A stretch of DNA of 64,000 bases from Macrocystis pyrifera (Eukaryota > Sar > Phaeophyceae > Laminariales > Laminariaceae): NCBI GenBank assembly GCA_031763025.1, contig JASSKH010000010.1, positions 5,327,901 to 5,391,900 on the forward strand, written 5' to 3'. The notes under the pieces are model-generated. The model was given only the letters and a program-made list of their open reading frames with translations. It made no database searches and was not told where the DNA came from. A program made the translations under genes and the position numbers. Positions 13,474 to 63,545 of the stretch are shown piece by piece; the first letter of the stretch is position 1, and the number at the start of each line of letters is the position of its first letter.

Positions 13474-13570
13474 ACGTCAACCATTTTATCGAAATAAGTG
13501 GTAAGCTCCCCTCCGCATGTTTGCGCACCATTTTTGCAACCTGCCAGTTGCACAAAATAGTTTGTATTCC

Positions 13571-14145: not shown

Positions 14146-14156
14146 GGGGGGGGGGG
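14146..14156 (+). other. Empty target site for family F (G11)
   Basis: Eleven G between TTCTAGCC and TTGCTTTACCC. The mirrored place in the right arm holds a 516-bp family F element between C10 and C15. Confidence 0.8.
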
Positions 14157-16684: not shown

Positions 16685-16790
16685 GTTTGACGCGCTTCCA
16701 AATTGTTAGTGACAGTTTTAATCGACGCACGTCCAACGGTTGAATGAATAGGATAGCTTTGATTGACGCACGTCCAACGGTTGTTTGGAG
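16685..16790. repeat. Short direct repeats GACGCACGTCCAACGGTTG
   Basis: Two exact copies and one diverged copy about 45 bp apart, mirrored in the right arm at 32280-32390. Confidence 0.7.
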
Positions 16791-17424: not shown

Positions 17425-17560
17425 AAACAAAAACAGGCTGTCTGAAAAAAAAGGGGGAAACAAAAAAAAGAGAGAAAAAAAACGGAGCCACCCGAAAAAA
17501 AAGAGAGAAAAAAACGGAGCCACCCGAAAAAAAAAAAGAGAATAAACGGAGCCACACTCA
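17425..17560. repeat. ~40-bp tandem repeat CGGAGCCACCCGAAAAAAAA
   Basis: Three units with purine-rich spacers, mirrored at 31520-31640. The Lys-rich frames through it are not supported as genes. Confidence 0.75.
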
Positions 17561-19790: not shown

Positions 19791-19814
19791 AACTGCTAGT
19801 GCTAGTAGTAGAGT

Positions 19815-24577: not shown

Positions 24578-25073
24578 ACTCAGTATCATGCATGGCCGTA
24601 GTCGTATGACCATAGATACACCCGCCGATCCCTACAAAGCCGGGACGGAGCACGTCGGATTTTCACAGACCAGGTAGACACTGCTTGCACCAGGCGTGAA
24701 GCGCCGTGAGGTGTTGGGCAAGTCGCATGGAGTGTGAGCTGCATCCTACTCAGAACCGCTTTTGAGGCGGATAGTCTTGCATAAGGACGACAGCGTCAAT
24801 GAATTGATTTATTTTCTGGTGTGGCCACTTCCAGAGACAGCAATGGGTGTACTATGCAACTGCCTCGTGGGTGCCTTACCATATACACACTACGTGATAC
24901 GATCATCCCCCTTGTGCGGAGGAAAGGTTCTCCCCACACAAAAATGATCTAACTCGACCGCCAGCCGTGGTGACCGCCAAAAAAAAACAGAAAAAAAACG
25001 GCACCCTGGCCGTCTAGCTCACGCATTGAGAGGCGTGTTTACGCCGTCGTCGCCAACCGACGCCAACCCAACC
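24578..25073 (-). mobile_element. Family F element, near full length
   Basis: About 496 bp, from CAGTATCATGCATGGCCGTA to GACGCCAACCCAACC. It contains GCCGGGACGGAGCACGTCGG, TGGCCACTTCCAGAGACAGC and an A-rich segment (24979-24995). The G run that adjoins other copies is missing at this one. Minus orientation is assigned because truncations remove the CCAACC end. Confidence 0.75.
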
Positions 25074-34932: not shown

Positions 34933-35473
34933 CCCCCCCCCCGGTTGGGTTGGCGTCGGTTGGCACCGACACTGTAAAACATGCCGCTCACTCGTGAGCT
35001 AGTCATCCAGGGTACCGTTTTTTTTTTTTTTTTTTTTTTTTTTTTGGCGGTCGCCCACAGCTGGTTGTCGAGTGAGATCATTGCGCGAAGTAAAGAACCT
35101 TTACTCTGCACAAAGGAATTGATCGTATCACGTAGTGTTCAAGGTAAGGCACCCAAGAGGCAGTTACGTAGTACTCCCATTGCTGTCTCTGGAAGTGGCC
35201 ACACCGGAAATTAAACTAACTCATTGAGGCTGTCATCCATATGCAAGTCCGCCTCACAAGCGGTTCTTAGTAGGATGCAGCTCACCCTTCATGCGACTCG
35301 CCGGACACCTCACGGCGCTTCGCGCTTGGTGCAAGCAATGTCTGCCTGGTCGGTGAAAACCCGACATGCTCCGTTCCGGCATTGTAGGGATGCGAGGGTC
35401 TATGGTCATACGACTACGGCCATGCATGAGATCGAGTACATCTCTCTTATCGAGTACACCCCCCCCCCCCCCC
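34933..35473 (+). mobile_element. Family F element, right-arm-only insertion between C runs
   Basis: The 516-bp element proper (34943-35458) runs from GGTTGGGTTGGCGTCGG to ATCGAGTACA. C10 (34933-34942) and C15 (35459-35473) flank it. The left arm has only G11 at the same place (14146-14156), so this is a filled site and the insertion is younger than the duplication. A run of ~28 T lies at 35018-35045. No ORF with a recognisable enzyme: non-autonomous. Confidence 0.85.
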
Positions 35474-36632: not shown

Positions 36633-36737
36633 TACGATGGGCCTATCGATAGGACCAAGTACTGTAAGTAAAAATAGGGAAATATATAGGTTTTTGTGTG
36701 TACCACAGGTCCTATTTACTATGGTTCCCCGTAGTAA
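36633..36737. mobile_element. Family A MITE (right arm)
   Basis: Mirror of 12883-12988, including its altered end. Confidence 0.8.
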
Positions 36738-37500
36738 GTTTCCCCCAATTAGCAGGGTAGGGTACTGTAGACTGTAGACTGCAGTCTCACAGTTACCTGG
36801 TAAGTCACATTACACATGCCTAAGCATTCACTCGTCTGCAGAATTCCTGGCGGCCTCCTCAAACCAAGAATCCTTGCCGTGTTACCTATGCGTGCCAGTT
36901 TTTTATTTCAATGTTTCCAAGCTTTCGATGTTGGTACGTATCACAACACCATCCGTCGTCCCCCTCTCATACCCACCTAAAAAAGAGGTCGATCTACACA
37001 TCTACACTATCGTTGATATTGATACTACAGGAGGAAACAGTCTACCATTGATACTGTTCCATTAAGGGCCGTTATTGCCGGAGAGGCCTTTGTCCTACAT
37101 TTGTAGATTTTCCAGATATTGATTTCGCACCATTAGTTTCTCTCCCAGGTTTTCCTGATATATAAATACAACTACAATTACGATTTTTGGGGTCGTTCTC
37201 ACTTGCTAGCTCTTGGCAGACAGACCGACTGATAGACAGCTCTTCGCAAACAGCCCTTCCTCTTTGAAACAGCCGAACAGCCAAACAACCTATCTTCTTT
37301 CTTCTTCGCCAAACAGCCAAACAACCTTTCTTCTTTCTTCTTCCGCAAACTGCCAACCAATAGACAGCTCTTCGCACGGCGCCTAAAAGAGGCGTCTCGC
37401 CTTCGACGAACGACATAGATAGGTGCAGCTGTCGGCGGCCAAGCTGCCGGTGTCGGTGGCGAACCTGCTGGTCCGCCTCTCCCTTCTCCACGCCCCCTAG

Positions 37501-37784
37501 GCTCACCTCCCCCTCGTAGAGAGGCGCGTGGTCCTCGCCCTCTGGCAAGAGAGCGGCAACGACAAAGACCGACCGCTGGTGCCGGCTGTTGTTTGCGACC
37601 AGTGCACAGACCAGCACTTGGTCAAGAACTCCGCGCCTGGTGGCAAAAACGTGGCCTTCGCCACCTGCAAGGATCTCATGTGCGTGGTGGCGGGATCATT
37701 CTGACAGGGCAACCGACTGCGAGTTCTGTGCTCGCCCGATCAAGGAAGGGACTGTCTCGTACTCCCTCGAGACTGCTGACAGTG
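37501..37784 (+). pseudogene. Zinc-finger-like exon 1, one frame slip
   Basis: The acceptor is excellent (TCTCCCTTCTCC...CCCCTAG|GCT). Frame 1 encodes RRVVLALWQESGNDKDRP, VVCDQCTDQHLVKN and ATCKDLMCVVAGSF, then stops. Frame 2 takes over near 37690 with TDCEFCARPIKEGTVSYSLE up to the donor AGTG|GTGAGT. CxxCxxPIxxG is the opening of a PARP-type zinc finger; its H-x2-C half would be in another exon. The frame change suggests a decayed copy or a sequence error. Domain assignment is a motif-level inference. Confidence 0.42.
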
Positions 37785-39322
37785 GTGAGTGTCTTATGGC
37801 TATTGTGCATGCTGTATGTTGCCAGTAAGTTTTCTTGGGGTTTTCAATTGCCTTTTTGCATACAAACCTACGTCAAAGCGTTTATTTTTTTTTTTACTCA
37901 TCCATGCTCGTTCTTTCCCCTTCGTGGGTTGCGTCGGCTCCTCTTACACACAGTGCACGCGAACGCGCACATGCACAACTGTTTGCGGGACGTGAACGAA
38001 GGAACGGAAGATTCAGCTGTCGCCATCACCGCAGCACCGAACGACGTGAGTGCTGCTGCTACTGTGGTGCATTTTCGGTGCATGCACACGATTTCTGTGT
38101 GTACATGTTTTGGTGACCCCACGTACTCATTTTGCTCGTGTTCGGCTGCCGCTGCCGCTGCTGCTGCTGCTGCTGCTGCTGCCAACGCTGCGGCGATTCG
38201 TTGCAGCTTCTGCTGCTGCTAATGCTGTAGCTGCTTCTGCTGCTGCTGCTGCTAATGATGCCGCGATGCCGCAATATCCACTGAATGTTCGTATGTACTC
38301 GGATTACTGTTTTTCTTGGTCGTTTTTGTACCCAAATGGTTCCTTTTGATACGTGAAAAAATATTTTTGTCGTTTTGCTCCTGCATTTTGCGTACGTACT
38401 GCAATTTCTCGTTTTTGGCTTGGTTAGTTTCATATATATCGTTGCTATGCTGCTGCTGTGGTGCTGCAGCGTTGTTGCCGTACATCATGCTGCACTTGCG
38501 TGTGTAAAAATATTTCGGTATCGTCAATGAAATTCCGTAGGTTTTGCGATTGCGGCATACCAGGGTATATACTTTTTTTCTACCTTATTTTCATAGCGTT
38601 GCTATGCTGCTGCCATCGCGGATTATTGTTTTCACTGGCCATTTTTGGACCGAAATGGTTTTTTTGATACGTAAAAAAAATATTTTGGGTCGTTTTGCTC
38701 CTGCATTTTGCGTACGTACTACTTTTTCTCGTATTTCGTATTGTTGCTATGCTGCAGCTGCGTTGTTGCCGTACAGCATGCGGAGGTGGGTCTATATTGA
38801 GGTACCAAAAATACTTTTCGGACGGCCTCGGGGTACATACTTTTTTTTCTCCCTTCTTTTCATATCGTTGCTATGCTGCTGCTGCCAACGCTGTGGCGAT
38901 CCGTTGCTGCTTTGCTGCTGCTGCTGCTGCTGCTGCTGCTCTGCTTTTAGTGCTGCCGAAGTATTCACTGAATGTTTGTATGTACTCGGATAATTGTGTT
39001 TCCTGGTCGTTTTGTGGCGCTGCTGCGTTGTTGCCGTACATCATGCTGGACATGATTTGTGTGTCTGTTACGCTTAAACTTGTGCGTGTGTACATATTTC
39101 TGTATCGTCAATGATTTTTTTTGTGGTGCTGCTGCGTTGTTGCCGTACGTCATGCTGGACGTGATTTGTGTGTGTACTGTACTCCACTTGTGTGTGTACA
39201 TATTTCTGTATCGTCAATGAAATTACGTACTTGCTGCTTCTGCTGCTGCTGCTGCTGCCGTCGTATAGCAAGCGATTACGTACTGCTGTTGTGCCGCTGT
39301 AGAATAGTACAAATAATGAACT

Positions 39323-39363
<41 letters not shown>

Positions 39364-39431
39364 TACCCCTCCCCCGCCATTCCCTGCACGCCACTCCCGC
39401 CCCGCGCACCCTATATGTTTACTTCGACCAG
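37785..39431. repeat. CTG-rich composite tandem repeat (intron-like)
   Basis: Five to six imperfect units of about 100-270 bp contain TTGCTATGCTGCTGCTG, GCGTTGTTGCCGTACATCAT and TTTCTGTATCGTCAATGAAA, e.g. at 38440, 38590, 38740, 39020 and 39125. (CTG)n tracts lie at 38155, 38235 and 38910, and C38 at 39326-39363. It separates the two zinc-finger-like exons. Confidence 0.75.
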
Positions 39432-39590
39432 GTCCGTGGCAAGTGCTACAACTGCCGCCTGACGGACTCCACCATCAAAGACGGAGACATCATCATCAAG
39501 CGCAAAAGGACTCCCTTCCATTTCGCCTGCTCCAGAGCTTCGCGGAATTCCGAAGGAGTACGCCAAGCAGATTGTCGCCATCCAGGACGA
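39432..39590 (+). pseudogene. Zinc-finger-like exon 2, one frame slip
   Basis: After the acceptor CGACCAG| the frame reads VRGKCYNCRLTDSTIKDGD, then RTPFHFACSRA. This gives C-x2-C ... H-x2-C, the ligand pattern of PARP-type zinc fingers, with about 21 residues between the pairs. A coding-like continuation one frame over (LRGIPKEYAKQIVAIQDER) begins after ACSR, so the frame appears slipped once. The exon lies 1.65 kb downstream of 37501-37784 on the same strand, probably of the same broken gene. No catalytic domain seen nearby. Confidence 0.45.
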
Positions 39591-40242
39591 ACGAAAAGAA
39601 ACAATTGTTTCCCATATTTCCCAAAATCACGATTATTTCTTCCTACACATATCCAACGGGTTCAACAGCGAACAGATTCACATTCTGGGCCTCCCGCCTC
39701 GCCTCGTTACTACAGCATCCTGGAAGACTATTTACATATCATGTCTCATCCAAACTCCTATGCTGGCTACATCGACATCGCGCCCGCCCAGCAACTATAC
39801 AACATTTCCATAACCGTTGTCGTTGCCGGCACTGCTGCTTTCTCTCCTGTCCCAAACCTTCCTTTAAACAACAGCCTGTATGTTGTATATCATCCACATG
39901 CCAAGCACTACTCCACTCTCTCCCCACACTGATGAAATATGTTATTCCTATTTTTAGACGAATGTCATTCTCACTCTTGCGTCACCCGATCTTACGTTTC
40001 ACATTACATTCATAAATAAACACGATTATTACATCCTTCACCGTTTCTTACGCAAATACATTTAGTTTGGTTGGCTTTGGGCTATGTCGCCAATTAATTG
40101 CAGTTATATGTACACAAAACGACGGAATATTCATACCCACTCCGAAGGAAAGCCTTGTATATATATATATATATTCCTAAATACCAGGTATGTGAATGCT
40201 AAAACCGTTCCAGATACAACAACCTGTTCTGATGTTACATCG

Positions 40243-40607
40243 GGGGCTATTGTGGAGGACAGGTTTTGGAAAAGGTTCGTAGATTGGTCGTCGCACATGT
40301 ACCCATGGAAGATACACCAGAAGTGTTATCACATCTGAGAATCTTTCCGAGAACCGGGCCTCCTTGAAGTCGAGACAGGCCTTGTTTGCCCGTCCGAACT
40401 TCTCTCTCGATCTCTCTCTTCTCCACGCTGCTAACCCAACGTGGAGGGCTCTCTCCTTGCCCTAAATATAATAAAATAAAAGTGCAGCCCTCGGTAGCGG
40501 GTCGAAGCTACCACATCACTTGGGACCTTTGTGGCTCTACGAAAGTAGGGGCTCCATATTGGCGTCGACGATGAGATTCGAACTCACGCGGGCAAAGCCC
40601 AACGGCT
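40243..40607. mobile_element. 365-bp right-arm-only block ending in tRNA-Ser sequence
   Basis: Absent from the left arm, where GATGTTACATCGG runs directly into the flanking GGCTAAATTGAC (allowing for a few changed bases). The block ends in a tRNA-Ser 3' half with a CCA end. TGG at the tRNA start, read on the plus strand, sits where a retroelement primer-binding site would. It may be a reverse-transcribed fragment (terminal-repeat sequence copied on into its tRNA primer). No internal coding region is present. Confidence 0.55.
40564..40607 (-). pseudogene. tRNA-Ser 3' half, CCA-tailed
   Basis: Minus strand: CGTTGGGCTTTGCCCGCG (long variable arm), GTGAGTTCGAATCTCAT (T arm), CGTCGAC acceptor strand, discriminator G and CCA. 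The long variable arm and G73 point to serine. The 5' half is missing. Eukaryotic nuclear tRNA genes do not encode CCA, so this copy probably came from a mature tRNA through reverse transcription. Confidence 0.7.
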
Positions 40608-43024: not shown

Positions 43025-43686
43025 CTTGCGGGTGTCACGAACAGCGTGTTTCCCTCCTCCTCCTCCTCCTCCTCCACCTCCTCCTCCTCCTCCTCCCCTG
43101 TGTAGCTCGGCCATAGAAATGCAGGCTCCCCCGTACGTACACCTTTGCAGTGTAAAAGTGAAGATCGCCTGTTTCTTCGAGGTTGCTTCTCGTGTCTTGC
43201 TCCGAGATCTTCCCTGCTGTTGCAAAGGGCGATCGACCACCGGCTGGGCGGGCGAGCGCACGAAGAACGAAGAGGCGACGACTCTTCTTCTGCTGCTGCA
43301 GGTTGGCTTTGTACGCAAGAACGCGCCTTCACGTTGGGTCCTGCATGTCTAGATCGTGGACACATACCCCCCGCACATATCCAACCCAACCGTTTCACAG
43401 TACTTGATGATCTGGACAGTTCAGGGCATGTATATCATATACAGAGTCCTGATCTAGCTCGTGCTGCGGGGTGGGTGCCGTATAGTCTGCAGGAATGAAT
43501 CTATAGGGCAGGTTTCCTACAGTGGGTCGGATGTTTTCTCGTACGGAACCCGCACAACACCTCCTCTTCCTAACGGCAGAGGCTATGTAGAGGGTCTAGA
43601 TTATCTCACTATTAATAACTAGAGGAGGAGATCGTCACCTGTCCGACGGGTAGAGTGTGTGGCGAGAGCAAGCGGTCTACAGTACG

Positions 43687-43800
43687 ATTACGGGGGGGCA
43701 TACTGTAGTAAATAGGACCAAATGCTGTTAGTAAAAAATAGGTAAATATATAGGTTTTTGTGTGTACCGTGGGTCCTATTTACTATGGTCCGCCGTAATA
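43687..43800. mobile_element. Family A MITE
   Basis: GATTACGGGGGGGCATACTG to GGTCCGCCGTAATA, inverse core orientation, 287 bp outside the right arm's outer end. Confidence 0.88.
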
Positions 43801-44330
43801 ATAGTGCGAGGAGTGTCGTGCCGTGCCATGCTGCGAGCGCACTACTGCAAATTGCACAGCTCCTTGCAGATATATCGTGCTATCCGCCGCCCCCACAGCG
43901 CCGGGCCGCTATCCATATACCGGTCGCTCCGGTGGTCCACACTACTATTGTTATTAATAGCGGTAGTTAACCCTCGAATGTTAAAAGCGGGAGTCCTGGA
44001 GTTCGAATCCGACCGTGGTACGAGTAAGTTTGTGAAGTGATATATTTGCATATAACTGATAATAGTTTTTACAAAAAAATCAAACGCCAAGAGCGCCTAT
44101 TAATAGCGTGAGTAGTAGCAATGTCGACGCGAGTCGACGAGAGAAAAAAGAGCTATAATAACGTCTTCTCGCGATAAAAAAAACAAGGCACTAGCAGTAT
44201 GCGAAGCAGGGAGGGGGGAGGAGAGTCCTTCATGAGGCCGCGGATCCGAGTTACAACTACGAGGGCGAGCGAGAAAATGGGGGCAGGGAAATGAAGGGGA
44301 TGGGCAAATATGAACAATGCAGTCAGTCAT

Positions 44331-44910: not shown

Positions 44911-44976
44911 CCCCCCCCCCCCCCTCACAATGGCCATACGACTACGGCCATGCATGAGAATGAGTACACCCCCCCT
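44911..44976 (+). mobile_element. Family F fragment between C runs
   Basis: C14 (44911-44924), then ~44 bp of the family F 3' end (TACGACTACGGCCATGCATG...GAGTACA), then C6. Strong 5' truncation. Confidence 0.75.
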
Positions 44977-45003
44977 CCTTCCCCCCCTCAACAACGCGCC
45001 TAA

Positions 45004-45152
45004 CCCCCCCCCCCCCCCCCCCCCCCCCTTCGTGCAAGCCATGTCTGCCTGGTGGGTGAAGACCTGACGTGCTCCGTCCCGGCATTGTAGGGGTGCGAGC
45101 GTCCATGGCCGTAGTCGTACGGCCATGCATAACATGATGATTACACCCCCCC
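45004..45152 (+). mobile_element. Family F fragment between C runs
   Basis: C25 (45004-45028) meets TTCGTGCAAGCCATGTCTGC. The element ends GATTACA followed by C7. About 115 bp retained. Confidence 0.78.
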
Positions 45153-45859
45153 GCGCGCGCGCCTCCTCCCTCCCCCGTTGGATGGCAACGGCTTCCATTC
45201 GCGGTCGTCATCTTCGGACCATGCGTGCTCTTCGTACGGACAGCAGCAACAACAACCACTACTACACCACCTACCCTGGCACCGACTGCAGCAGCAGTGC
45301 GTGCGCTTTTCATTTCCCCCGTCAACGACAATACACGGGACAGACGCAAGCAGTGCCAGCAATCACCCCTTCCGCAACTGCCTCTTTTGTATACGTACGT
45401 ACGTCAATGCGTCCCCGTATAGGGATACGCTACGTAAACGCCCTACCAAGCAAAACTCATGATGATTGCATGCATCGCGTGTGTCGCCGTTGCTACCGTG
45501 GTGTACATGGGTGTACCGGTTTTTGAGTGTTTGCCATATACATGCATGTGTGGTGCGAAAGGCCATTCAAATTCGGCAGAGCTATATACGAAACCTCGGT
45601 CCCATGTCGTGTACCGGGTATATGTGGCACGTATTATGGTAAGACCCATCAAATTCTGCAGCTACACGATCCCCCTCTCTCACGTTACGCCCACAAATCG
45701 CCCAGCACATGTATATCTAGCACTCACACGGCAACATCAAAGAATACATATATAGGCACATCATATATACGTGCGGCATGTATCATATGAAAGCACACAG
45801 CACCCTTTTCCCTCCGCTTAAATTCGAGTGACAACCCAACATCATCCCCAAATCACCCA

Positions 45860-45890
45860 CCACAACCACCACCACCACCACCACCACCCT
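45860..45890. repeat. (CCA)n microsatellite
   Basis: Short CCA/ACC trinucleotide tract. The surrounding 45160-46560 shows no supported gene. Confidence 0.7.
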
Positions 45891-46581
45891 AAAAAACGCC
45901 AAACACACGGCGAAACCCTACTCCGTAGTAGGCGCGTGATTTCCTTCACCCTTCAGCAGGCGTAGTATACTGTCAACATGTTACCCTCAATACCGTACTG
46001 CAAACTACCGTATGAGTTTCTGGAGTGCTATTGTACTGCTGACGGGTGATTTTATGCAGCGCTGCCAAGCTCGCAAATATCTGGGATTGAACTAATGTCC
46101 GTACCGCACGAAAGGGGACGGCATCGGTTACACCCCGGCGCCATACCGGTCCTTCGATTAGCACCCGATACTGCAAACACACAATCTGCTGCAGCACTGG
46201 CAGCTACTGCTGTACTCGAGGCGCGGAAGGAAGAAAAGAGCACGATCAGCAGCAGCGGCAGCAGCAGCAGCCACCCCACCCCACCCCACCCCCCCACCCC
46301 ACCCCACCCCGCACCGTGCGTCGCGATCTCCTATCCATCCATTCATCCCGACCTAAAAAAAAAAAGAGAAAGATGTCGAAGTGCCTCCACAACCCAACTG
46401 AAACCCTAAAGGCAAACACTGCTACGTGCCCCTTAAGACTGCTTGTGGTGTGGTGAGTGGCGAGTGGGAAACGACCGACGCAAGCGAACCGCAACAAACG
46501 GAGAGCACCAACCTAGCCGTTACAGATACGTACTCGTAGTGACACCGGTTAAGCAAACACGGTGTACACAGATGTTTTTCT

Positions 46582-46722
46582 CCCCCCTCCCCCCCCCGCC
46601 AATGTCTGCCTGGTCGGTGAAAACCCAACGTGCTCAGTCCCGGCATTGTAGGGATGCGAGGGTCTATGGTCATATGACTACGGCCATGCACGATAATGAG
46701 TACACCCCCCCCCCCCCCCCCG
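46582..46722 (+). mobile_element. Family F fragment between C runs
   Basis: C-rich start (TCCCCCCTCCCCCCCCCGCC), then AATGTCTGCCTGGTCGGTGA to AATGAGTACA, then C17. About 105 bp retained. Confidence 0.78.
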
Positions 46723-46929
46723 CCCCCCCCACGCCTCCGCGCTAGGTTACGCGTTGGAACACCCAGCGGAAATCGGACAGAGCTTTCGAAACAAAAGAAA
46801 TATAGAACAAAAAGTGAACGAACGAATGGATTCATGAAATGACGCAACAGCGGTATAATCAAATACAGCGAACCGCTGTCAGCAAAACAACATGCAAACA
46901 CTAACAGAACAATGTACGCAACGGCTGTC

Positions 46930-47000
46930 CAGCCGGGGGGGGAAGGGGGGGGGGGGGGGGGCTGCTGAGCCCCCCCCCCCCCTCCCTCCCCCCGTCCCCC
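46930..47000. repeat. G-run / C-run pair
   Basis: G9-AA-G18 followed by CTGCTGAG and C14. A potential hairpin and a likely assembly-sensitive spot. No family F sequence here. Confidence 0.8.
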
Positions 47001-47224
47001 CTTACCTACAGGGGACTACGCACTCATATCTCCGCAAAACTCCTGCAACTCCTATATTCACATGAGACACGGATGGCGTCATGCGGCGGATCACACCGTC
47101 CGAGGTGGACTTTACTACCTGGGCAGAATGTATAACCATCGTTTAGATTCTGATACAAATATCAAGTGGTACATTGCTCCACGTACACTGGGGTGGCAAT
47201 ACTCCCGCCGGCATGATACCCGGG

Positions 47225-47365
47225 TGCTACCAACCTCACAGTACATATACCTGGGTACCCTCAGAGTACATATACCCGGGTACCCTGTGAGCACATATAC
47301 CCGGGTACTTCCAGAGTAACATAACCGGGAAACCCCAAAATATATTACTCCCAGGGTACATCGTA
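47225..47365. repeat. ~30-bp tandem repeat with ATACCCGGGTAC
   Basis: Four imperfect units of CAGAGTACATATACCCGGGT. The related motif GGGTAYNTACYCGGGTA recurs at 56275-56345. Confidence 0.75.
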
Positions 47366-47663
47366 CCAGGTATGTTTTACACATTTTTTTCATGCCATCT
47401 ACTATCTTTCGCCCGTATTTCCTCTCTCCTTCCTATTGATATTGATAGTCGCAACTCAGAGTCACACAGCAGGCTCTTCTCCCTCCGCCCCACTGCTACG
47501 GTTCTTGCCTTGGAAGGCGTTTATATCCCAAGACTTCATGAAGGCCCTTTTTGCCCTCGTCGACAATTATTAGCACCGAACACATGAGACCCCACCGAAT
47601 CACCCTTGATGCTGGCATATTTTTTGTACCCTCGGAGAGTTGCTTTCTTTCCTGCTTTCCCTC

Positions 47664-47797
47664 AGCTCGGTTTCGTCCGAAAAGCGTTAGAGGCGGCGGA
47701 GAATCCTATACCCGTCATACTCCAGCCCCTTGCTTTCTGTATCTTCCTTCCCTCGAACGCGGCTACGCTGTCTTGTGTGTTTTCGCTGCAACGATAG
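47664..47797 (+). CDS. Weak candidate terminal exon
   Basis: A strong acceptor (TTTCCTGCTTTCCCTCAG|CTC) opens LGFVRKALEAAENPIPVILQ, then PLAFCIFLPSNAATLSCVF and a stop at 47795-47797. Coding-like but short, no partner exon found, family unknown. Confidence 0.28.
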
Positions 47798-47946
47798 CTA
47801 GCGGTAGGCTTGCGCGGAAAGCAGCGGAACGCGGGCGTCCGCGAGTCTATCGCGGTGGGTCATCTGTATAGAGGCCTCATCCGATACCAAGTAGTCGCCG
47901 TTCAAGGTGGTCCCCAAAGTGGCCTGGCGGAAACAAAAAGGACGCC

Positions 47947-48427
47947 GGGGGGGGGGTGTACTCATTATCATGTATGGCCGTAGTCGTATGACCATAGACC
48001 CTCGCATCCCTAAAATGCCGTGACCGAGCACGTCGGGTTTTCACCGACAAAGCAGACACATGCTTGCACCAAGCGCGAAGCGCCGTGAGGTGTTGGACGA
48101 GTCGCATGAAGGGTGATCTGCATCCTACTAAAAACCGCCGTTGAGCGTCAATGATTTGATTTATTTTCCGGTGTGACCACTTCCAGAGACAGCAATGGGT
48201 TTACTATGTAACTGCCTCGTGGGTGCCTCACCACATTCACACAACGTGATACGACCATCCCCCTTGTGCGGAGTTAAGGTTCTCCCCGCACAAAAATGAT
48301 CTAATTCGATCACCAGCCGCGGTGACCGCCAAAAACAATACAAACAAAAAACGATACTCTGGTTATCTAGCTGACGCAGCGAGAGGCATGTTCAACAGCA
48401 TCGTCGCCAACCGACGCCAACCCAACC
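47947..48427 (-). mobile_element. Family F element, full length
   Basis: G10 (47947-47956), TGTACTCATTATCATG ... GACGCCAACCCAACC, about 470 bp. It shows the same internal order as 24578-25073, including the CCGCCAAAAACAA segment. Confidence 0.85.
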
Positions 48428-48496
48428 TCTCTCTCTATACAAGTACCAGGTATGTCATATAGGGGCCGAACAAACCTCGTACGCGCGATCGAAGCG

Positions 48497-48508
48497 TCAC
48501 ACGCATCT
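48497..48508 (-). CDS. LysM/UBA-like gene, probable last coding exon
   Basis: The acceptor TTTGATTGCAG|AGA gives, in phase 0 from the exon at 48696-48812, Arg-Cys-Val and then TGA at 48499-48497. Short and therefore weakly supported. If the preceding intron is not removed, the frame runs on 42 residues to a later stop. Confidence 0.4.
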   Translation of the reverse strand, partial: RCV

Positions 48509-48695
48509 CTGCAATCAAATATGAGTTTCGACGCAATCCTCGATCCCACCAGACCCACTACCCCCGTTTCTACTTTTTTGCATACACGTGCAACATGCGT
48601 CGTGTCACTTTACGCAACAATAGTGGGAGTATCCAGCCATGACCGCGAACGCGTGAGTGTCCCTCCCTTTGTTTTCGGGGCGGAGCACAACGCAC

Positions 48696-48812
48696 CTGGA
48701 AACGTCCGCGCGGAGCCGCCTCGGCTTGACGCGAGCCCACTGACTTCCGGCTTCGCTGCCGCGGCCAACTGCGTTTCGTCGGCACCGACGTCGATGGTGT
48801 TTCCTGCGCCTG
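48696..48812 (-). CDS. LysM/UBA-like gene, basic C-terminal exon
   Basis: The acceptor TATTTGTTGCAG| and donor TTCCAG|GTGCGT enclose 39 codons in phase 0 at both ends, matching the phase-0 donor at 49644. It encodes QAQETPSTSVPTKRSWPRQR then SRKSVGSRQAEAAPRGRFQ, a basic Ser/Arg-rich tail that may be disordered. The other reading of the same bases starts at ATG 48864 (MKVLIAACIVWLPLFVAAGA) and looks like a signal peptide. I prefer the exon reading because acceptor, phase and neighbours agree. (TTGGG)n repeats lie directly upstream. Confidence 0.5.
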
Positions 48813-48865
48813 CTGCAACAAATAGCGGTAACCACACGATGCATGCGGCAATGAGAACCTTCATT

Positions 48866-49033
48866 CGAACCCAACCCACACCAACCCAACCCACCTCAAC
48901 CCCAACCCTAGCACAAGCCAATCCAATCCAGCCCAGCCCAACCCTAACACAAGCCAATCCAACCCAACCCAGCCCAACCCAGCCCAACCCAACCCAACCC
49001 AACCCAACCCAACCCAACCTAACCCAACCCGAG
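48866..49033. repeat. (CCCAA)n array
   Basis: Imperfect CCCAA pentamers, with related blocks at 49318-49350 and 49440-49560. They lie inside an intron of the LysM/UBA-like gene. Telomere-like in look but pentameric. Confidence 0.9.
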
Positions 49034-49113
49034 ACGTTGGTTGTTCACAGATGTGTCACGAGACTGTAGAATTAGACGCGGTCAATGACACCTTTTCAGG
49101 AGCTCACACTACA

Positions 49114-49223
49114 ATTACTATGGGGGACCATAGTAAACAGGACCAAGTATTGTTAGTAAAAATAGGTAAATATATAGGTCTTGTGTGTACCGTAGGTCCT
49201 ATTTACTATAGACCCCCGTAATA
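49114..49223. mobile_element. Family A MITE
   Basis: TTACTATGGGGGACCATAGT to ATAGACCCCCGTAATAG, in the same intron as the (CCCAA)n arrays. Confidence 0.88.
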
Positions 49224-49643
49224 GCACATTAGTACGTTGAGTCTGGACTCTGGACCGCGGTCCGTCACAGGTATAAATGTCCGCTTCCTGGGCTGCAAAA
49301 ACCTCCCGCCTAACGACAACAAACCCAACCCAACCCAACCCAACCCAACCCACCGCAATCCTAATTCCACCCCATCCTACCCTCTATCCCACCCTACCCC
49401 CAACTCAGCCCATTCCAACTCCCCCTAACCCCACCCCACTTCACCCCTACCCAACCCAACCCAACCCAGCCTAGCCAAGGCCAACCTAGCCCGACCAACG
49501 CAACCCAACCCAACCTATCTCAACCCAGCCTACCATACCCCCCAACCCAACCCGGTCCGACCGATCCCAACCGAACCAAAGCAGTCTCGGCTCGCAAAAG
49601 AAGAGTCTATCGACTCTCAACAACAGCAGCAACAACAACAAAC

Positions 49644-49820
49644 CTGCTCAGACTCCCAGGCCTTTTCATCGCGCCACTCCTTGAGCGCCTTGGCCAGGTC
49701 CCAATTGTTCCCCTCGAGGTAGTACTTGGCCTCCGATGTGCCCAGTCGAGAGGAGACGCTGAAGCTCTGGAGCAGCTCGGGCTCGGTGAGCGGCTGCTGC
49801 CCAATGGTGTCTTGTTTAGG
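49644..49820 (-). CDS. LysM/UBA-like gene, UBA-like domain exon
   Basis: The acceptor CCCTTGTTCAG| and donor GAGCAG|GTTTGT bound 59 codons in phase 0. The exon starts PKQDTIGQQPLTEPELLQ, then SFSVSSRLGTSEAKYYLEG and NNWDLAKALKEWRDEKAWE. A hydrophobic three-helix pattern with the L-E-x-N-x-W-D-L-x-x-A-L signature is typical of UBA-like domains (TAP-C, p47/UBX N-terminal and DCN1 types). These bind ubiquitin or FG-type partners in other proteins; the ligand here is unknown. The exon follows the LysM exon at 51724-51825 in matching phase. This is one of the best-supported coding segments in the window. Confidence 0.8.
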
Positions 49821-49876
49821 CTGAACAAGGGTGGTGGGAGGACGTAGGGTTGGGTGGAGGGGTGGTGAGGGTCGGC

Positions 49877-50014
49877 GGGGGGGGGGGGGGGGGGGGGGGG
49901 GGGCTACAATGCCGGGACGGAGCACGTCGGGTTTTCACCGACCAGGCAGACATTGCTTGCACCAAGCGCGAAGCGCCGTGTGGTGTTCGGCGAGTCGGGG
50001 GGGGTGGGGGGGGG
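49877..50014 (-). mobile_element. Family F fragment between G runs
   Basis: G27 (49877-49903), then CTACAATGCCGGGACGGAGC to TTCGGCGAGTC, then G8-T-G9. The usual TGTACTCAT end is also missing, so both ends are truncated. Just upstream of the UBA-like exon's acceptor. Confidence 0.78.
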
Positions 50015-50340
50015 TTGTTTTCGCAATACAGCTGGCCCATTTTCAGCGCAACCGGTTCAAGGCCATAGCAGACACAAGACCAGGTGATCGGCTCGTCACG
50101 AGGAAAAAAAAACACTGCTTGGGAATAGTATGGGATAGTTGTTTCAGTAAAAAAAGACAACACAACAAGCGGAGATTCAAGACCATATAAATTGCCTTCA
50201 TGTCGTAAATTGTCTTCAAGGTCAGGGAGTGGTCATTAAGTGGGTACAACCACTGTAACTCGCCTCCAAAATATAAGAACCGCTTTGTATTCATGTTCAT
50301 GCATAAACGGTCTTTATATTTCCGGCCAGGGTCCATAGTG

Positions 50341-50760
50341 TGGGTTCCGATTACGTACAACATACTACTCCGTCCCCGAACAGAGTTCCGTCTGTCCCCG
50401 AATCTAGTTCCGATTACAAGATACCACTCTGCCCCCGACTACAGTTCCGATTAAAACATGACACCACTCTGTCCTCGAATCTAGTTCCGATTACAGCATA
50501 CCACTCTGTCTCCGAACAATAGTTCCGATTACATGACACCACTCTGTCCTCGAATCTAGTTCCGATTACAACATACCACTGTCCCCGCATATAGTTCCGA
50601 TTACAACATGACACCACTCTGTCCTCGAATCTAGTTCCGATTACAACATACCACTCTGTCTCCGAACATATTAATAGTTCCCATTACAACGTACCACACC
50701 ACTCTGTCCCCGAATCTAGTTCCGATTACAACATGACACCACTTTTCTGTCCCCGAAAGC
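50341..50760. repeat. ~40-bp tandem array
   Basis: About ten units of CACTCTGTCCCCGAATCTAG TTCCGATTACAACAT in the large intron between the LysM and UBA-like exons. Confidence 0.88.
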
Positions 50761-50996
50761 AAGGGCATGTTTAATACTATATAATAGTATTATTATTTAT
50801 TTGTTCGCTTTCGTGTAGTGAGAGAGCGGTATGCCCCTCGTAACAGAAAAAAAATAGGACTCCAAAAGCGCCCTGGAGATGAAAGATACACACACTACTT
50901 AAGGCGAAGGGGGTACACCCCAGACAAAAAAACAAAAAAGTGAAATGAGCGCACTCGATACATGTGTTGTACGACTTGTAAGTAGGCGGTGGAGGT

Positions 50997-51027
<31 letters not shown>

Positions 51028-51101
51028 ACTCATTGTCATGCATGGTCGTAGTCGTATGACCATAGACCCTCGCATCCCTACAATGCCGGGACGGAGCACG
51101 T

Positions 51102-51158
<57 letters not shown>
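50997..51158 (-). mobile_element. Family F fragment between G runs, G57
   Basis: G30 (50997-51026), then TACTCATTGTCATGCATGGT ... GGGACGGAGCACGT, then G57 (51102-51158). About 75 bp retained. Confidence 0.8.
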
Positions 51159-51159
<1 letters not shown>

Positions 51160-51723
51160 GATGGGAGGGGGGGGCAGAGGAGCAGGGGTGGAGTGGGGGG
51201 TTGAGATACCGCCTCTGATTGGAGTCTAATCCTACAGTAGTTCGGAACATAACGGAAATGCCTCCTGCTAAAATACAATATAAGGTAAACGCTAAGCCAC
51301 ACGCTAGGCCGCACACAATGTCACACCAACACTAAGGCCACGCAAACAACGCAAAAGCCCAAACCGCGCGGTCAGCACCTACCGCCCATGCAACTGAAAT
51401 CCAATACAACTCATACCGCTCATGCAGCTCATACAGCCCAGGTAGATAATACAGCTCCCACAACTCATACAGAAAATATACTATTATTCCATAAAAGGCA
51501 ACTCGTGCAAAACCCGCGCAGCTCATACAGCTCACACTACGTTAAAAAAGTGAAGAAAAAAAAACCTCAGCTGTGAGATCGAGAATACTGTCGAAACTCA
51601 TCGTACAGATGATACAACTCCTACAGCAGCGCATACGACACATGCAAGTCGAGGAAAAGGCAGGCGCGCCGTCTACTCGAAACCCAAGTGAATCACCCAC
51701 ACGCTGTCTGACTGCTCGCTCAC

Positions 51724-51825
51724 CTCTTGTCCGGCAGCGAATCTGTTGGGGACGATCAGGGAGTCGCACATCCGGAAGTGGTTTCCCACGAAGCCGTTCA
51801 GGCGCCGCACCTCGCGATCCTTAAC
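51724..51825 (-). CDS. LysM/UBA-like gene, second half of LysM domain
   Basis: The acceptor TACTGTCGTCAG| and donor CAAGAG|GTGAGC enclose 34 codons in phase 0. It encodes VKDREVRRLNGFVGNHFR then MCDSLIVPNRFAAGQE, the second helix and final strand of a LysM fold (V-x-x-x-x-x-x-x-L-N ... L-x-V-P). It joins in phase to 54107-54195 and to 49644-49820. LysM domains bind N-acetylglucosamine polymers or, in intracellular eukaryotic proteins, unknown ligands. No signal peptide or membrane segment is seen in the exons found. Confidence 0.82.
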
Positions 51826-52030
51826 CTGACGACAGTAATTCAAAAATGTCGATTTAATGGTTTCTTACTCATGTTTTTTTTAAGCGTGTTCTTCTGCGCT
51901 GTTCATTGTGACTGTTATCGTGATGGATATCGCCAATGTTTTGAGTCTATTATTGCTGTTACCGTGTGTGTTTTGTGACTGCCATCGCGACTTTCATCGT
52001 GACTTGCCGTCGTGATGGCCGTTGTGAAAG

Positions 52031-52068
52031 GAGACCGTTCAGACGCCGCACGTCGTGATCCTTCGCGG
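52031..52068 (-). pseudogene. Extra LysM half-exon, copy 3
   Basis: The minus strand reads AKDHDVRRLNGLLS, close to VKDREVRRLNGFVG of the real exon, then diverges. It has no strong acceptor. It lies 206 bp upstream of the real exon. Confidence 0.55.
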
Positions 52069-52090
52069 GGCAAGCTGATGTTGGTTGCGC

Positions 52091-52199
52091 TATTCCGGGG
52101 GGGCATAGTAAATAGGACCTAGGGTACACACAAAAGCCTATATACTTCAATATTTTTACCAATAATATTTGGTCCTATTTACTATGGTCCCCCGTAATA
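52091..52199. mobile_element. Family A MITE
   Basis: TATTCCGGGGGGGCATAGTA to CTATGGTCCCCCGTAATA. In the LysM intron. Confidence 0.9.
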
Positions 52200-52367
52200 T
52201 TAATAGTTGTTGCCGTTACTCCCGCCGCTGTTATTGATCTGTGGCTCTTTGTTTCCACTATTGCTGTGTGTACTGTTTTTTTTCTTTTCTTTTTTTTATA
52301 TCCTCCTTGGAGATCTGGGTAAAAAAAAGCTTTCGCCCAATACACTTTCTTATTCGTGTATCGGTTC

Positions 52368-52476
52368 TATTTCGGGGGACCATAGCAAATAGGACCTACG
52401 GTACACACAAAAAACTATATATTTCCCTATTTTTACTAACAATGTTTGGTCCTATTTACTATGGACCCCCGTAATA
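52368..52476. mobile_element. Family A MITE
   Basis: TATTTCGGGGGACCATAGCA to CTATGGACCCCCGTAATA. Core close to the family consensus. Confidence 0.9.
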
Positions 52477-52772
52477 GTCCATCTGTAAAACAAACACAGA
52501 TTCAGCATGACACCCCACCGATGTTACATGTCATGGACTTGTCGGCCCTCGTTATTGATAGTCGACCCCTTCTAGGCTCGGCCAAGAGGTTGTGTACTGC
52601 TGAGACTGCCGTTGCTCCTACGATAGTCATCGTTTCGTCACTCTGTCCTGTCCTTGTGACTATTGTCATGACGACTACTGTTGTTATTCATACTGGTGTT
52701 TTACGCTCTCCGTCGTTGTTTTAAGCGATTATGGTCGCGACTATTGTTGTCATTCCATTAATACTATTGCAC

Positions 52773-52889
52773 TATTACGCGGGGCCATAGTAAATAGGAC
52801 CCACGATATTCACAAAAACCAATACATTCCCCTATTTTTACTAACAATATGTGGTCCTAATTACTACAGCAGTATGGTCCCCCGGAATA
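52773..52889. mobile_element. Family A MITE
   Basis: TATTACGCGGGGCCATAGTA to TATGGTCCCCCGGAATA. The right part carries a short ACAGCAG-containing duplication. Confidence 0.88.
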
Positions 52890-52943
52890 CTTTACTGCTG
52901 CTGCTGTTATCGTCGCTGCCGTTGTCACTCTTTTCGTTATTGC

Positions 52944-52981
52944 ACCAGACCGTTCAGCCGCCGGGCCTCGCGGCCCTTGAC
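52944..52981 (-). pseudogene. Extra LysM half-exon, copy 2
   Basis: After TTTCCAAG| the minus strand reads VKGREARRLNGLVQ and then a stop. Differences from the real exon are partly synonymous (GTT/GTC, CGC/CGG, GGC/GGT), so this copy may once have been translated. A GTGCAA donor-like site follows LNGL. Confidence 0.6.
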
Positions 52982-53102
52982 CTTGGAAATTCAGCGCCGG
53001 TTGTATTCTACTCCGGATTTTGTTTATTTAGTGACTGTTACCTGCTGGTGTGACCGTTATATTTACTGCCAATCCGGCTGTCATCTCTATCGATAGATAC
53101 AG

Positions 53103-53104
53103 CT

Positions 53105-53184
<80 letters not shown>
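53103..53184. repeat. (GA)n microsatellite
   Basis: About 40 near-perfect GA units. Confidence 0.95.
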
Positions 53185-53187
<3 letters not shown>

Positions 53188-53337
53188 CTATTGCCGCGAT
53201 AGCCGTTACCTCGATGGCGACGAAATAACTTATCGCTGAATGTTGGCTCTATTTTCTTCGCTTTTTTTCCTCCTATTCTCTTCAAAATATTATTTTTTCG
53301 CTCTTTTTTTTTCTCTCTCCCTCCCTCCCTCCCTCCC

Positions 53338-53457
53338 TATTACGGGCGACCACAGTACGTAGGATCAATTATTGTTACTATAGTAAAAATACGAAAATAT
53401 AGGGGTTCTTGTGTGTACCTTAAGTTCTACTTACTATTATTATGGTCCCCCGTATTA
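53338..53457. mobile_element. Family A MITE, diverged
   Basis: TATTACGGGCGACCACAGTA to TATGGTCCCCCGTATTA. Fourth copy in the LysM intron within 1.4 kb. Confidence 0.82.
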
Positions 53458-53917
53458 GTCGTAAGATCTGGCGTTCAGCATGGTAGCCTCCCCCCGCCCC
53501 TCCACTACGTTACGCGCCTTGCAATTTCATCACGAGAATGGTTCGGCACTTACTTCTTCCCCCGTCGACTCGCATCGCATCAACCCCAACCACATGCTCG
53601 CTCTATCCAATAAATATCACCCAGGTGTCCCCTATTCCCAATGATTAAGGACAATTTCGAACACGTAATTTTCCCCCGAAAACGTGGATGCAATTCTTAA
53701 GGGATGAAAGAAAAAAAAAAATCCCACAAACTCCCAAGTGCTCTTTTTTCTCCAGAAATCGTGGGAAAAAAAACTCACGCGCAGGAAAAATAACCCACAC
53801 AAATTCTCACGTCACCGTCCCCAAAACACGTGTAAAAGGTGCAGTGCGCGCGAAAGGGAACGGAAAAAATCAGGGCTGTTCACGGGTTGGCATCATCTTC
53901 AGAAATTCACAGTTCGA

Positions 53918-54015
53918 ATCGGGTCGGGTCGGGTCGGGTCAGGAGGTATTCGATTTCTCACGGGTTGGGTCGGGTCGGGTCGAGTCGGGTCGGGTCGGAT
54001 CGGGCCGGGTTAGGT
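53918..54015. repeat. (GGGTC)n array
   Basis: Same pentamer as the arrays at 5785 and 6343, reverse orientation, with the TGAGAAATCGAA-type spacer. Confidence 0.9.
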
Positions 54016-54106
54016 GACCCCATCCGACCCCATCCAACACTAGTTCCAAGTAGTTTATCCCGCAAAAAACGCTGGGTTAAAAAAACCCACAGAAATCCTG
54101 GCGTAC

Positions 54107-54195
54107 CTTGTATCGCATGCAGATGCCGGTCAGAGTGTCCTCGGGCATGACTATGTGCTCCAGGAACTCCGGAACGTGGATTTTCTTCGGGGCGT
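54107..54195 (-). CDS. LysM/UBA-like gene, first half of LysM domain
   Basis: The acceptor GCGCTCTATAG| and donor TACAAG|GTACGC. The first two bases complete an Asp codon with the preceding exon (phase 1), then 29 codons in phase 0 at the end. It encodes APKKIHVPEFLEHIVMPE, then EHIVMPEDTLTGICMRYK. The H-x-V-x-x-x-D-T-L-x-x-I-x-x-R-Y pattern is the textbook first half of LysM. The second half is on 51724-51825. Confidence 0.82.
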
Positions 54196-54322
54196 CTATA
54201 GAGCGCCGGCAGATGGGAACAAGAAAAAAACGTGGAAACGTTAGGCGTAGAAGCATGAGCGCGTCGAGAGTTCAAACATCCGTTGTGACGATTGATGAAG
54301 TGCGTCGAGAGGAGGAAGTAGA

Positions 54323-54440
54323 GGGGGGGGGGGTGTACTCGATGTCACGCATGACCTCAGCGGTAAGACCATAGACCCTCGCATCCCTACAATGCCGGGA
54401 CGGAGCACGTCGGGTTTTCACCGACCAGACAGGGGGGCGG
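54323..54440 (-). mobile_element. Family F fragment between G runs
   Basis: G11 (54323-54333), TGTACTCGATGTCACGCATG ... TTTTCACCGACCAGACA, then GGGGGGCGGGAG. About 100 bp retained. Confidence 0.78.
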
Positions 54441-54760
54441 GAGTACGAAAACTTACCATTTATTCGAGATGTGGTCTGATTGGCTTAGGGCCAGGGTTGA
54501 TTCGGTCTGATTGGCTCATAGGTCTAGGGTTAGGATAGTTATGTTCGGCTCGTACACAAGTGGCTCCAAACCATTGTCTCGAAAACGTGCTGACCAAAAC
54601 TCTCGGGGCGGCGGGTGATTGGTTAGTGTAATCAACGAGAGGTGATTGGCCGGAACTTTGATTCTCTTCGAGGCTCCTAACGCCGAGAGGCGAAACAAAA
54701 AACTACAATGTGGTAGCTAAGTCGAGAGTTCGAACACCGTTACGTATATTATGCATGAAC

Positions 54761-54786
54761 GGGGGGGGGGGGGGGGGGGGGGGGGG
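54761..54786. repeat. G26 run
   Basis: Follows ATTATGCATGAAC. No clear family F body beside it. Confidence 0.9.
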
Positions 54787-54936
54787 AGGTTATTTGGTCG
54801 GAGGCATAGGGGTGAGCGTGGCTTCTCGCCGTCGCAGAAAAAGACAAGATCAACAACAGCCGATTTGCGCGGTTCCACACTTTTGGTCGTTTTATGTCGG
54901 CTTTGGCTCGGCCGCGTGCGCACGCGCGCGGCGAGT

Positions 54937-55205
54937 GGGGGGGGGGGGGGGGGGGGGGGGGGTACTGATGTCATGCATGCGCGTATTTGTACGACCATAG
55001 ACCCTCGCTCCTTACAATGCCGAGACGGAGCACGTCGGGTATTCGCCGACCAGAGAGACATGGCTTGCACCAAGCGCGAAGCGCCGTTATTGGGTGAGTC
55101 GCATGAAGGGTGAGCTGCATCCTATTCATGACCGCTTGTGAGGCGGATTTTCTTGCTCAAGGATGACAGCATCGAACGAATTGCGCGGCGGGGGGGGGGG
55201 GGGGG
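54937..55205 (-). mobile_element. Family F fragment between G runs
   Basis: G26 (54937-54962), TACTGATGTCATGCATG ... GAATTGCGCGGC, then G16. About 225 bp retained. Confidence 0.8.
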
Positions 55206-55313
55206 CGGGGGCTGTACTCGACCTATTCATGGCCGTAGTCGTATGACCATACCTGTAGACCCTCGCAATGTACCCCTACAATGCCGGGACGGAGGACGTC
55301 GGCTTGGGGGGGG
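55206..55313 (-). mobile_element. Family F fragment between G runs
   Basis: CGGGGGC, then TGTACTCGACCTATTCATGG ... GGAGGACGTCGGCTT, then G8. Shares the G run of its neighbour, so the two insertions are back to back. Confidence 0.75.
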
Positions 55314-60239: not shown

Positions 60240-61100
60240 TTTGTATGTTGATTGAAAGGCGTATCGGCCCGGGAGGGGGGTGACATCTAACGTACCCCGG
60301 TGATAAAATTGCCTTTTGTAATGTAGTTTCTCCCTTTCATCACCGGGGTCGATTTCCTGTGCTTGGGTGGAACGACCTATCTAACAGTCAAGGAGAAGGT
60401 TGGTATCGTACGTCATGGCTGGTACATGGTAGCTCCATCTCAGAATTAAAGGGTAGCTTATATTGTGGGCCAGAGTTCTAGCTCGGAAGGGCGACCCTTC
60501 CGTCAAACCCCAACTCACTTGCTGATTGGATAAGCCAGTCACGTCATTTGCCGAAGGCATGTAGAGTATGCGACATCACTCACTTTTCAACACACACATG
60601 ACTGACGTAAGGCCAGGCTCGACTTACTACGAAACGACAGGGCAATGTGTGTCCTACTCGAATTTCAGTATCGTTCAAAAATACAGCCCGGAATTATCAA
60701 TCCCCAAAAATCTCAATACCTGCGAGTATCGCTTACTACTACAAGTATTATATAGTAGTAACTACTGCTGCTGTGTATTATGTATTAGTCGGGATATTTC
60801 AGAAAAAAAAACGTGCGAAAAAACGGGGAGGCTACACCCCGGACACGTAGACGCGACCCACCTCGTCCTCCACATGCTTCGGTACAATGGAGGCAGATAC
60901 TGTAACTCGCCCTACGGGTAGTCACGCCCTACGGGTAGTCAGAGACCTTCAACTGTCGTGCTCTCCCCTTTTCGGTACAATAGGAGATAGGGGATAGGAG
61001 ATAGGAGTACGAGTAGGAGATAGGGTTAGAAACCAAGCTCGCCGAAGGGGCAGCCAACCACTTTCACTGCGGTGCACCGTCTCTAGGACTGCACAGCAGC
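60240..61100. other. No supported gene
   Basis: A minus-strand stretch SASIVPKHVEDEVGRVYVSG near 60835-60895 looks coding but has no convincing splice pair. Short GGAGATAGG repeats lie at 60985-61022. Confidence 0.4.
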
Positions 61101-61209
61101 TATTACGGGGGACCATATTACATAGGACCTAAGGTACACACAAAAACCTATATACTTCGCTATTGTTACTAACAAGATTTGGTCCTGTTTACTATAGTCT
61201 CTCGTAGTA
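61101..61209. mobile_element. Family A MITE
   Basis: TATTACGGGGGACCATATTA to ACTATAGTCTCTCGTAGTA. Confidence 0.88.
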
Positions 61210-61349
61210 GGAAGGAAGGTGTTTGGCTGCACCTTAGGCGAGATGTCCATGCTACCGACCGAAATATGTCGCCGACGATGCACTGCTGCTGTGTTGGTCG
61301 CGTCTAATTGCCCGGGGTACTCGTACGATACGTACCGGTGCGTGTGTTC

Positions 61350-63050: not shown

Positions 63051-63159
63051 TATTACGGGGGACCATAGTAAATAGGACCTACGGTACACACAAAAACCTA
63101 TATATTTACCGATTATTGCTAACAACGTTTGGTCATATTTACTATGGTTCCCCGTAATA
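63051..63159. mobile_element. Family A MITE, near consensus
   Basis: TATTACGGGGGACCATAGTA to CTATGGTTCCCCGTAATA, a well preserved copy. Confidence 0.92.
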
Positions 63160-63545
63160 ATGACGTTTTTTTTTATTTTTTGAGTTATACATACCGAACG
63201 AAACTCAATTTTACGAGTACTCGTAGGCAGAAAGTGTCAGTCCATCGCAACGCTCAGGCCGTGTCCCTAAGACATGCTGCTATTAACAGTGGATTGTCAG
63301 GCCCACCCTCCTACTGATGACGCGGCGGAGAAACAGGAGAAACTCTGTTGTAGATGTCGTACAGCAATAGTAGTGGTGGCACCTGCTACGAGAAGCTCCT
63401 CCTGCTATTGGTCAGGTAGGTGCAGATTATTCGAATTTCGAGTTGGGAACCAGGAAACACGCAACAAATCAAGTAAGTGTACAAAGTGTTCAAGGGTCAG
63501 ACCGACAGCCGAGTGTACAGCGACGCTGACCCTGCCCTCGCGTGA

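Follow-up and report, generated by a model that had tools for sequence, protein, structure and literature searches.

What kind of element leaves its fragments between runs of a single base? The question is raised by a 64,000-nucleotide (nt) stretch of the Macrocystis pyrifera genome (GenBank assembly GCA_031763025.1, contig JASSKH010000010.1, positions 5,327,901 to 5,391,900, forward strand), here called the window, in which copies of a ~500-bp non-coding repeat, element F, adjoin runs of G or C. We consider it likely that F is a non-autonomous retroposon of ~500–545 bp, dependent on a long interspersed nuclear element (LINE), and that target-primed reverse transcription, starting from the G strand, inserts it into (dG)n/(dC)n tracts.

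Element F and its flanking runs

Copies were located by reading the region, listing every G/C run of at least 7 and comparing the three near full-length copies against the window (BLAST, nhmmer). This gave 11 copies, 3 near full-length and 8 truncated (44–227 nt). In sense orientation F reads 5′ GGTTGGGTTGGCG ... GAGTACA 3′; its 3′ end is nearly constant, whereas its 5′ ends are scattered. Ten of the 11 copies, whose truncation points differ, retain GAGTACA or something close to it (GATTACA at 45004, GAGTA at 50997, CAGTA at 54937). Copies and associated runs are listed by window coordinate, with paired run lengths, where present on both sides, separated by a slash.

24568–25073, minus strand: near full-length copy with only CCCC at its 3′ end and no C-run of at least 6 within 8 bp of its 5′ end; AT-rich leader to ~25099, then a sense-strand C-rich tract (25100–25121)
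34933–34942, plus strand: C10 run on the 5′ side of the filled site
34943–35458, plus strand: near full-length copy of 516 bp, starting GGTTGGG, in arm 2 of an inverted duplication only
35459–35473, plus strand: C15 run on the 3′ side of the filled site (10/15)
14146–14156, minus strand: the empty site, where arm 1 has one run of 11 in place of 34933–35473
44911–44987, plus strand: C14, 44-nt copy (44925–44968), C7 TCCTT C7 (14/7); its first 6 nt have no clear match to F
45004–45152, plus strand: C25, 117-nt copy (45029–45145), C7 (25/7)
46582–46730, plus strand: C6TC9, 107-nt copy (46598–46704), C17GC8 (6+9/17)
47947–48427, minus strand: near full-length copy (47957–48427 without the run) with sense-strand C10 at its 3′ end; on its 5′ side no adjacent run, an AT-rich leader, then CCCC
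49877–50014, minus strand: 93-nt internal fragment (49904–49996) between runs (27/8+9)
50997–51158, minus strand: 75-nt copy (51027–51101) between runs (30/57)
54323–54440, minus strand: 99-nt copy (54334–54432) between runs (11/6)
54937–55205, minus strand: 227-nt copy (54963–55189) between runs (26/16)
55190–55313, minus strand: 100-nt copy (55206–55305) with the run of 16 in common with copy 54963 and a far-side run of 8 (16+5/8)

A sequence-only reading of the window had reported nine places with a run of the same base on both sides, and all nine hold, as do their coordinates. It had also described most copies as keeping the GAGTACA end, 49877 excepted, and as differing in how far they reach away from it; eight of the nine places do keep that end or a close variant, and the 5′ truncation points are scattered.

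The association with runs is strict in strand. Sense-strand C-runs of at least 6 lie within 8 bp of 9/11 5′ ends and 10/11 3′ ends; opposite-strand G-runs adjoin none of the 22 ends, and all 19 run-adjacent ends are on the same strand. When 11 intervals were placed and stranded at random (20,000 trials), run-adjacent ends averaged 0.30 and never reached 19. Stricter thresholds left 8 + 10 ends (runs of at least 7) and 8 + 8 ends (at least 8), each reached in 0 of 20,000 random trials, and when the nine clustered copies were re-placed inside their own 10.4 kb, random trials never matched their count. The test is favoured by its copy edges, which were chosen manually and mostly coincide with the border of a run; edges from BLAST and nhmmer, blind to runs, fall within about ten bases of the hand-set edges for truncated copies. 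At the broken 5′ end a run is present in all eight truncated copies. Of the clues to mechanism, this constancy of strand is the strongest: an element free to enter a G/C tract either way should show G on its sense strand in half the copies.

The 3′ junction also recurs as a motif. GAGTAC, an optional A and at least 6 C occur together 8 times in 305 kb (the total sequence searched, window plus outside stretches), 2 of them outside the window; 179 permuted motifs treated alike gave a mean of 0.07 and a maximum of 1. The matches are mostly known F copies and hence no independent evidence.

Empty site, clustering and copies elsewhere

Did the runs precede the element? An inverted duplication in the window (9592–20304 versus 43397–28779; 96.4% identical over aligned bases) presents one site in two states: a run of 11 in arm 1 and, at the same place in arm 2, C10, the 516-bp F copy and C15. 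The flanks match on both sides except for one run-adjacent base and scattered differences. Because the corresponding empty site has a run of 11, the run at 34933 probably existed before F inserted, and the simplest reading of the pair is insertion into an existing run that was duplicated or lengthened. Arm 2 carries further inserts, one of 3,001 bp (~37168–40165) at a TA repeat and one of 352 bp (~40253–40604) whose start, by eye, is like the 3′ half of a tRNA.

Nine of the 11 copy starts fall inside 10.3 kb, a clustering found in 2 of 20,000 uniform draws, and the density of runs not adjoining F is 1.14 per kb inside the cluster versus 1.29 outside. Copies 54963 and 55206 form a tandem pair with one run in common. 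Because copies cluster where other runs are no denser, and because this pair has a common run, the arrangement suggests, without showing, that each insertion supplies targets for the next.

Runs also occur apart from F. A different tandem repeat at outside locus L021 (702–1120) has units with C-runs of 32, 36, 11 and 17. Run pairs are by themselves not diagnostic, and F-independent runs exist, as the target model requires. A stretch of ~200 bases at L006 (6503–6705) is almost pure C (runs of 17, 82, 49, 27 and 20).

The outside sample comprised 25 loci (L numbers) of the same assembly, 241 kb in all, with 11 loci from one contig and 2 of the 25 stretches picked because their neighbours held F copies. 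Profile searches found eight further copies, in L013, L014, L016, L022 and L023. Six of the eight have a C-rich 3′ flank (at least 11 C in 20 nt; 1.1% of random places), three have a C-run of at least 6 in that flank (0.6% random) and five have one no more than 45 nt from the 5′ end (1.3% random); G-runs (at least 6 in the 3′ flank, at least 5 in the 5′ flank) occur in 0/8. The outside copies agree with the window pattern, more weakly. Identity to window copies is only 67–76% for the L014 piece and the two L013 copies, which would be compatible with runs decaying as copies grow older. The L022 copy (9472–9969) has C16 at a distance of 20 bp, past its leader, and C14; a truncated copy at L023 is flanked by C18 and C25 tracts; and at L016 (1430–1511) C10, 11 nt resembling the 3′ end and C22 are followed directly by a longer copy.

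Nature of F and competing explanations

F encodes no protein: the maximum open frame is 81 codons across the three near full-length copies. Copies diverge from the consensus by 2% to 20%. By eye, an AT-rich leader of ~7–35 bp lies between the C tract and GGTTGG in 24568, 47957, two L013 copies, L014 and L022; because it precedes GGTTGG in near full-length copies, complete F is perhaps 510–545 bp, leader included. Copy 34943, unlike these, begins directly at GGTTGGG. A comparison of 24568 and 47957 for a common leader upstream of GGTTGGG gave no significant match (356 of 2,000 shuffles equally good). A subfamily with a doubled ATCGAGTACA end comprises 34943, L022 and probably L013 9335. Exact searches with F patterns gave 0 matches in viral and prokaryotic contig collections.

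A short interspersed nuclear element in the strict sense was considered and rejected. F has words that resemble an A box at 1 mismatch but no RNA polymerase III B box at up to 2 mismatches, and the longest internal T-runs of the three near full-length copies are 9, 28 and 6. The window contains no tRNA gene and no Rfam family at gathering score, hammerheads included; a lax threshold on copy 34943 returned three matches, weak and unrelated (E 1 to 2.9).

A CCCAA/GGGTT-type repeat tract lies at 48879–49550, and the F 5′ end (GGTTGGGTTGG) resembles it. The decamer ATACCTGGTA, with at most 1 mismatch, occurs at 27 window places versus 3.5 expected (largest shuffle 9); the leaders of copies 47957 and L014 hold it in exact or close form. 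A hairpin near the 3′ end of copy 45004 (45101–45128) appears inverted relative to other copies.

A LINE-type reverse transcriptase (RT) probably mobilised F. Target-primed reverse transcription, established for LINEs, extends the primer strand directly into complementary DNA (cDNA); here the primer strand would be the G strand. An endonuclease would open the G strand inside a (dG)n/(dC)n tract, and the 3′ end of the G tract would serve as primer on F RNA, with copying starting at the RNA 3′ terminus (GAGTACA, perhaps then C residues). Copying would frequently stop early, giving 5′-truncated copies, and joining of the cDNA to what is left of the C tract would involve little microhomology or none. 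The tract would thereby be duplicated or lengthened, leaving a reusable run on each side. A predicted 3′-terminal hairpin can form in most copies.

The sequence-only reading had proposed 5′-truncated retrotransposition aimed at poly-G/C tracts, or else copies ending in poly-C instead of poly-A. The targeting gains the empty/filled pair, the strict strand orientation and the partly weaker agreement of the eight outside copies. Retrotransposition gains the near-constant 3′ end and the scattered 5′ ends; a longer RT-encoding relative with the F 3′ end, which that reading had suggested seeking, was absent among the copies found in 305 kb, and the mechanism is one we infer. A poly-C ending is not a full explanation: a run is already there at the empty site, and runs stand on both flanks.

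Of the alternatives, capture without an endonuclease survives best, and we regard it as unlikely. Long G tracts would break (e.g., by G-quadruplex stalling), and pieces of F RNA or cDNA would be copied or patched in, as in endonuclease-independent LINE or Penelope-like insertion. The 49877 fragment, 5′-truncated and without its 3′ end, speaks for such capture, as do the 5′ joins, with 0–1 nt of possible microhomology by eye, and the greater length of runs near F (median 10, 22 runs; 4 of 81 other runs reach at least 17). Simple patching, however, would give neither the single strand of all 19 run-adjacent window ends nor a 3′ end kept in 10 of 11 copies.

A DNA transposon or miniature inverted-repeat transposable element (MITE) with a G/C target, later eroded to fragments, is very unlikely. 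F is dispersed and non-coding and accounts for one clean insertion difference between the arms, and the L016 copy at 3875–3952 lies between two open reading frames (ORFs; 3106–3783 and 4809–5756, minus strand) matching DDE_Tnp_4 / Plant_tran (profile parts 1–85 and 98–158). These transposase ORFs are perhaps one transposon interrupted by insertions; they stand ~120 and ~860 bp from F, and no second F copy was seen with one. Terminal inverted repeats are not convincing in any of three copies (7–9 of 25 positions in an ungapped end-to-end match), and erosion would not place a run at the broken 5′ end of 8/8 truncated copies.

Highly improbable, too, is the origin of the runs after insertion, with a short C-rich tail and neighbouring C expanding by slippage and deletions between C tracts trimming F. 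Run length does vary at a fixed internal place in another repeat (24, 15 and 14 at L003 977, L005 1376 and L006 8871), but the empty site already has its run, and F lacks a C tract at most truncation points, though deletion between runs needs one. An assembly or sequencing artefact, with poly-G read errors beside collapsed repeats, is barely credible: homopolymer lengths are error-prone in any technology, yet the 3′ junction recurs, runs are interrupted, unique flanks continue on both sides, the pattern returns on other contigs and the paralogous arm holds an empty site.

Target-primed insertion from the G strand must itself be set against a body of contrary observations. At the junctions, 24568 misses at both ends and 47957 at its 5′ end, so that 2 of the 11 window copies are without a 5′ run; outside, 3/8 copies are without a C-run of at least 6 within 45 nt of the 5′ end and 5/8 without one in the 3′ flank. 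The window holds 30 neighbouring same-base run pairs 25–600 bp apart, 9 with F between them and 21 without, and the L021 C-runs of 32 and 36 are only 21 nt apart with no F between. The empty/filled pair is single among 18 copy sites whose flanks were compared with the 305 kb; its arm 1 element may possibly have been lost by slippage between two runs, and target-duplication ends are not definable in a homopolymer (11 versus 10 + 15 around the insert). The 49877 fragment, sole window copy without the GAGTACA end, is unexplained by target-primed reverse transcription; internal priming or later loss may account for it. In the F 3′ domain none of 11 predicted pairs has a change on both sides (no covariation), and the predicted 3′-end fold of one copy is no better than shuffles. 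Nor has an enzyme been linked to F: no RT was found in 30 scanned of 269 filtered window ORFs of at least 75 amino acids, no autonomous element sharing the F 3′ end was found among the copies in 305 kb, and the RTs of L011, L012 and L024 (20 scanned of 61 outside ORFs of at least 170 amino acids) lie in stretches that hold no F. L011 and L012 have Gypsy-type domain sets, and the L024 RT has no solved-structure match. L016 also has a weak copia-gag match, and L023 a Pol_BBD match ~430 bp from its F copy. A LINE with a restriction-like endonuclease is a possible partner for F.

Separate from F, the window carries a MITE-like family of ~90–150 bp that starts near GGGGACCATAGTAAATAGGACC and has a matching inverted end, at 13 places.

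65–185, 2723–2842, 4254–4375, 12884–12971, 36649–36737, 43679–43803, 49106–49228: MITE-like family (GGGGACCATAGTAAATAGGACC)
52085–52218, 52361–52482, 52762–52909, 53328–53459, 61099–61219, 63051–63161: MITE-like family (GGGGACCATAGTAAATAGGACC), continued

Relation to known systems

What would follow if F is aimed at G/C tracts? Tentatively, and with less than even confidence, we suggest that F could be part of a retroelement system specific for (dG)n/(dC)n in which each insertion leaves two runs and so seeds new targets. If so, clusters of nested copies, many of them very short, would propagate themselves (54937–55313; 44911–45152; L016 1430–1511), and F insertion might drive expansion of genomic G/C tracts. 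For site-specific retroelements the known targets are multicopy genes, telomeric repeats and longer simple repeats, and a mononucleotide G/C run would be a very simple target among them. G tracts are fragile and able to form G-quadruplexes; a G/C target would tie retrotransposition directly to their origin and growth. It would also point to a pair of enzymes, an endonuclease and an RT, able to prime from poly-dG, with which primer choice in target-primed reverse transcription could be studied.

LINE copies in general have a defined orientation and are truncated at the 5′ end. Penelope-like elements insert at telomeric or simple repeats and show strong 5′ truncation. For F, no hammerhead at Rfam gathering score was found in the window, and no RT was found with it in the ORFs scanned (30/269 in the window, 20/61 outside).

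In the Ectocarpus genome, according to the available text of PMC12477816, LINEs include CRE, RTE and RTE-X, and RTEX-N1_Ec32 is a ~600-bp element with thousands of copies, a 5′ region of undetermined origin and a supposed dependence on a LINE. It is alike to F in size and supposed LINE dependence, a likeness by description only, not sequence; no homopolymer target is mentioned for it in that text, and the words "homopolymer" and "poly-C" have 0 occurrences in the main text (PMC12477816).

Another parallel is with LINEs that carry a restriction-like endonuclease and target repeats, among which the available text of PMC4640811 names Togen, in (TG)n, some HERO elements, and the CRE, R2, R4 and NeSL clades. 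Like these, F inserts into simple or repeated sequence (PMC4640811), and like site-specific LINEs it has one kind of target and one orientation (C-runs at 19/22 ends, G-runs at 0/22), with the outside copies weaker. Unlike the repeat-targeting LINEs, F encodes no protein, its target is a mononucleotide G/C run, and no RT or endonuclease is linked to it here. The sequence-only view that no described element behaves in this way is uncontradicted by literature searches of an open-access library, which turned up no retroelement specific for G/C homopolymers; that library leaves out most subscription journals and Repbase. Because retroelements that target other simple repeats have been described, as the available text of PMC4640811 sets out for Togen in (TG)n, the behaviour of F is a variant of known simple-repeat targeting, with a G/C homopolymer as the target.

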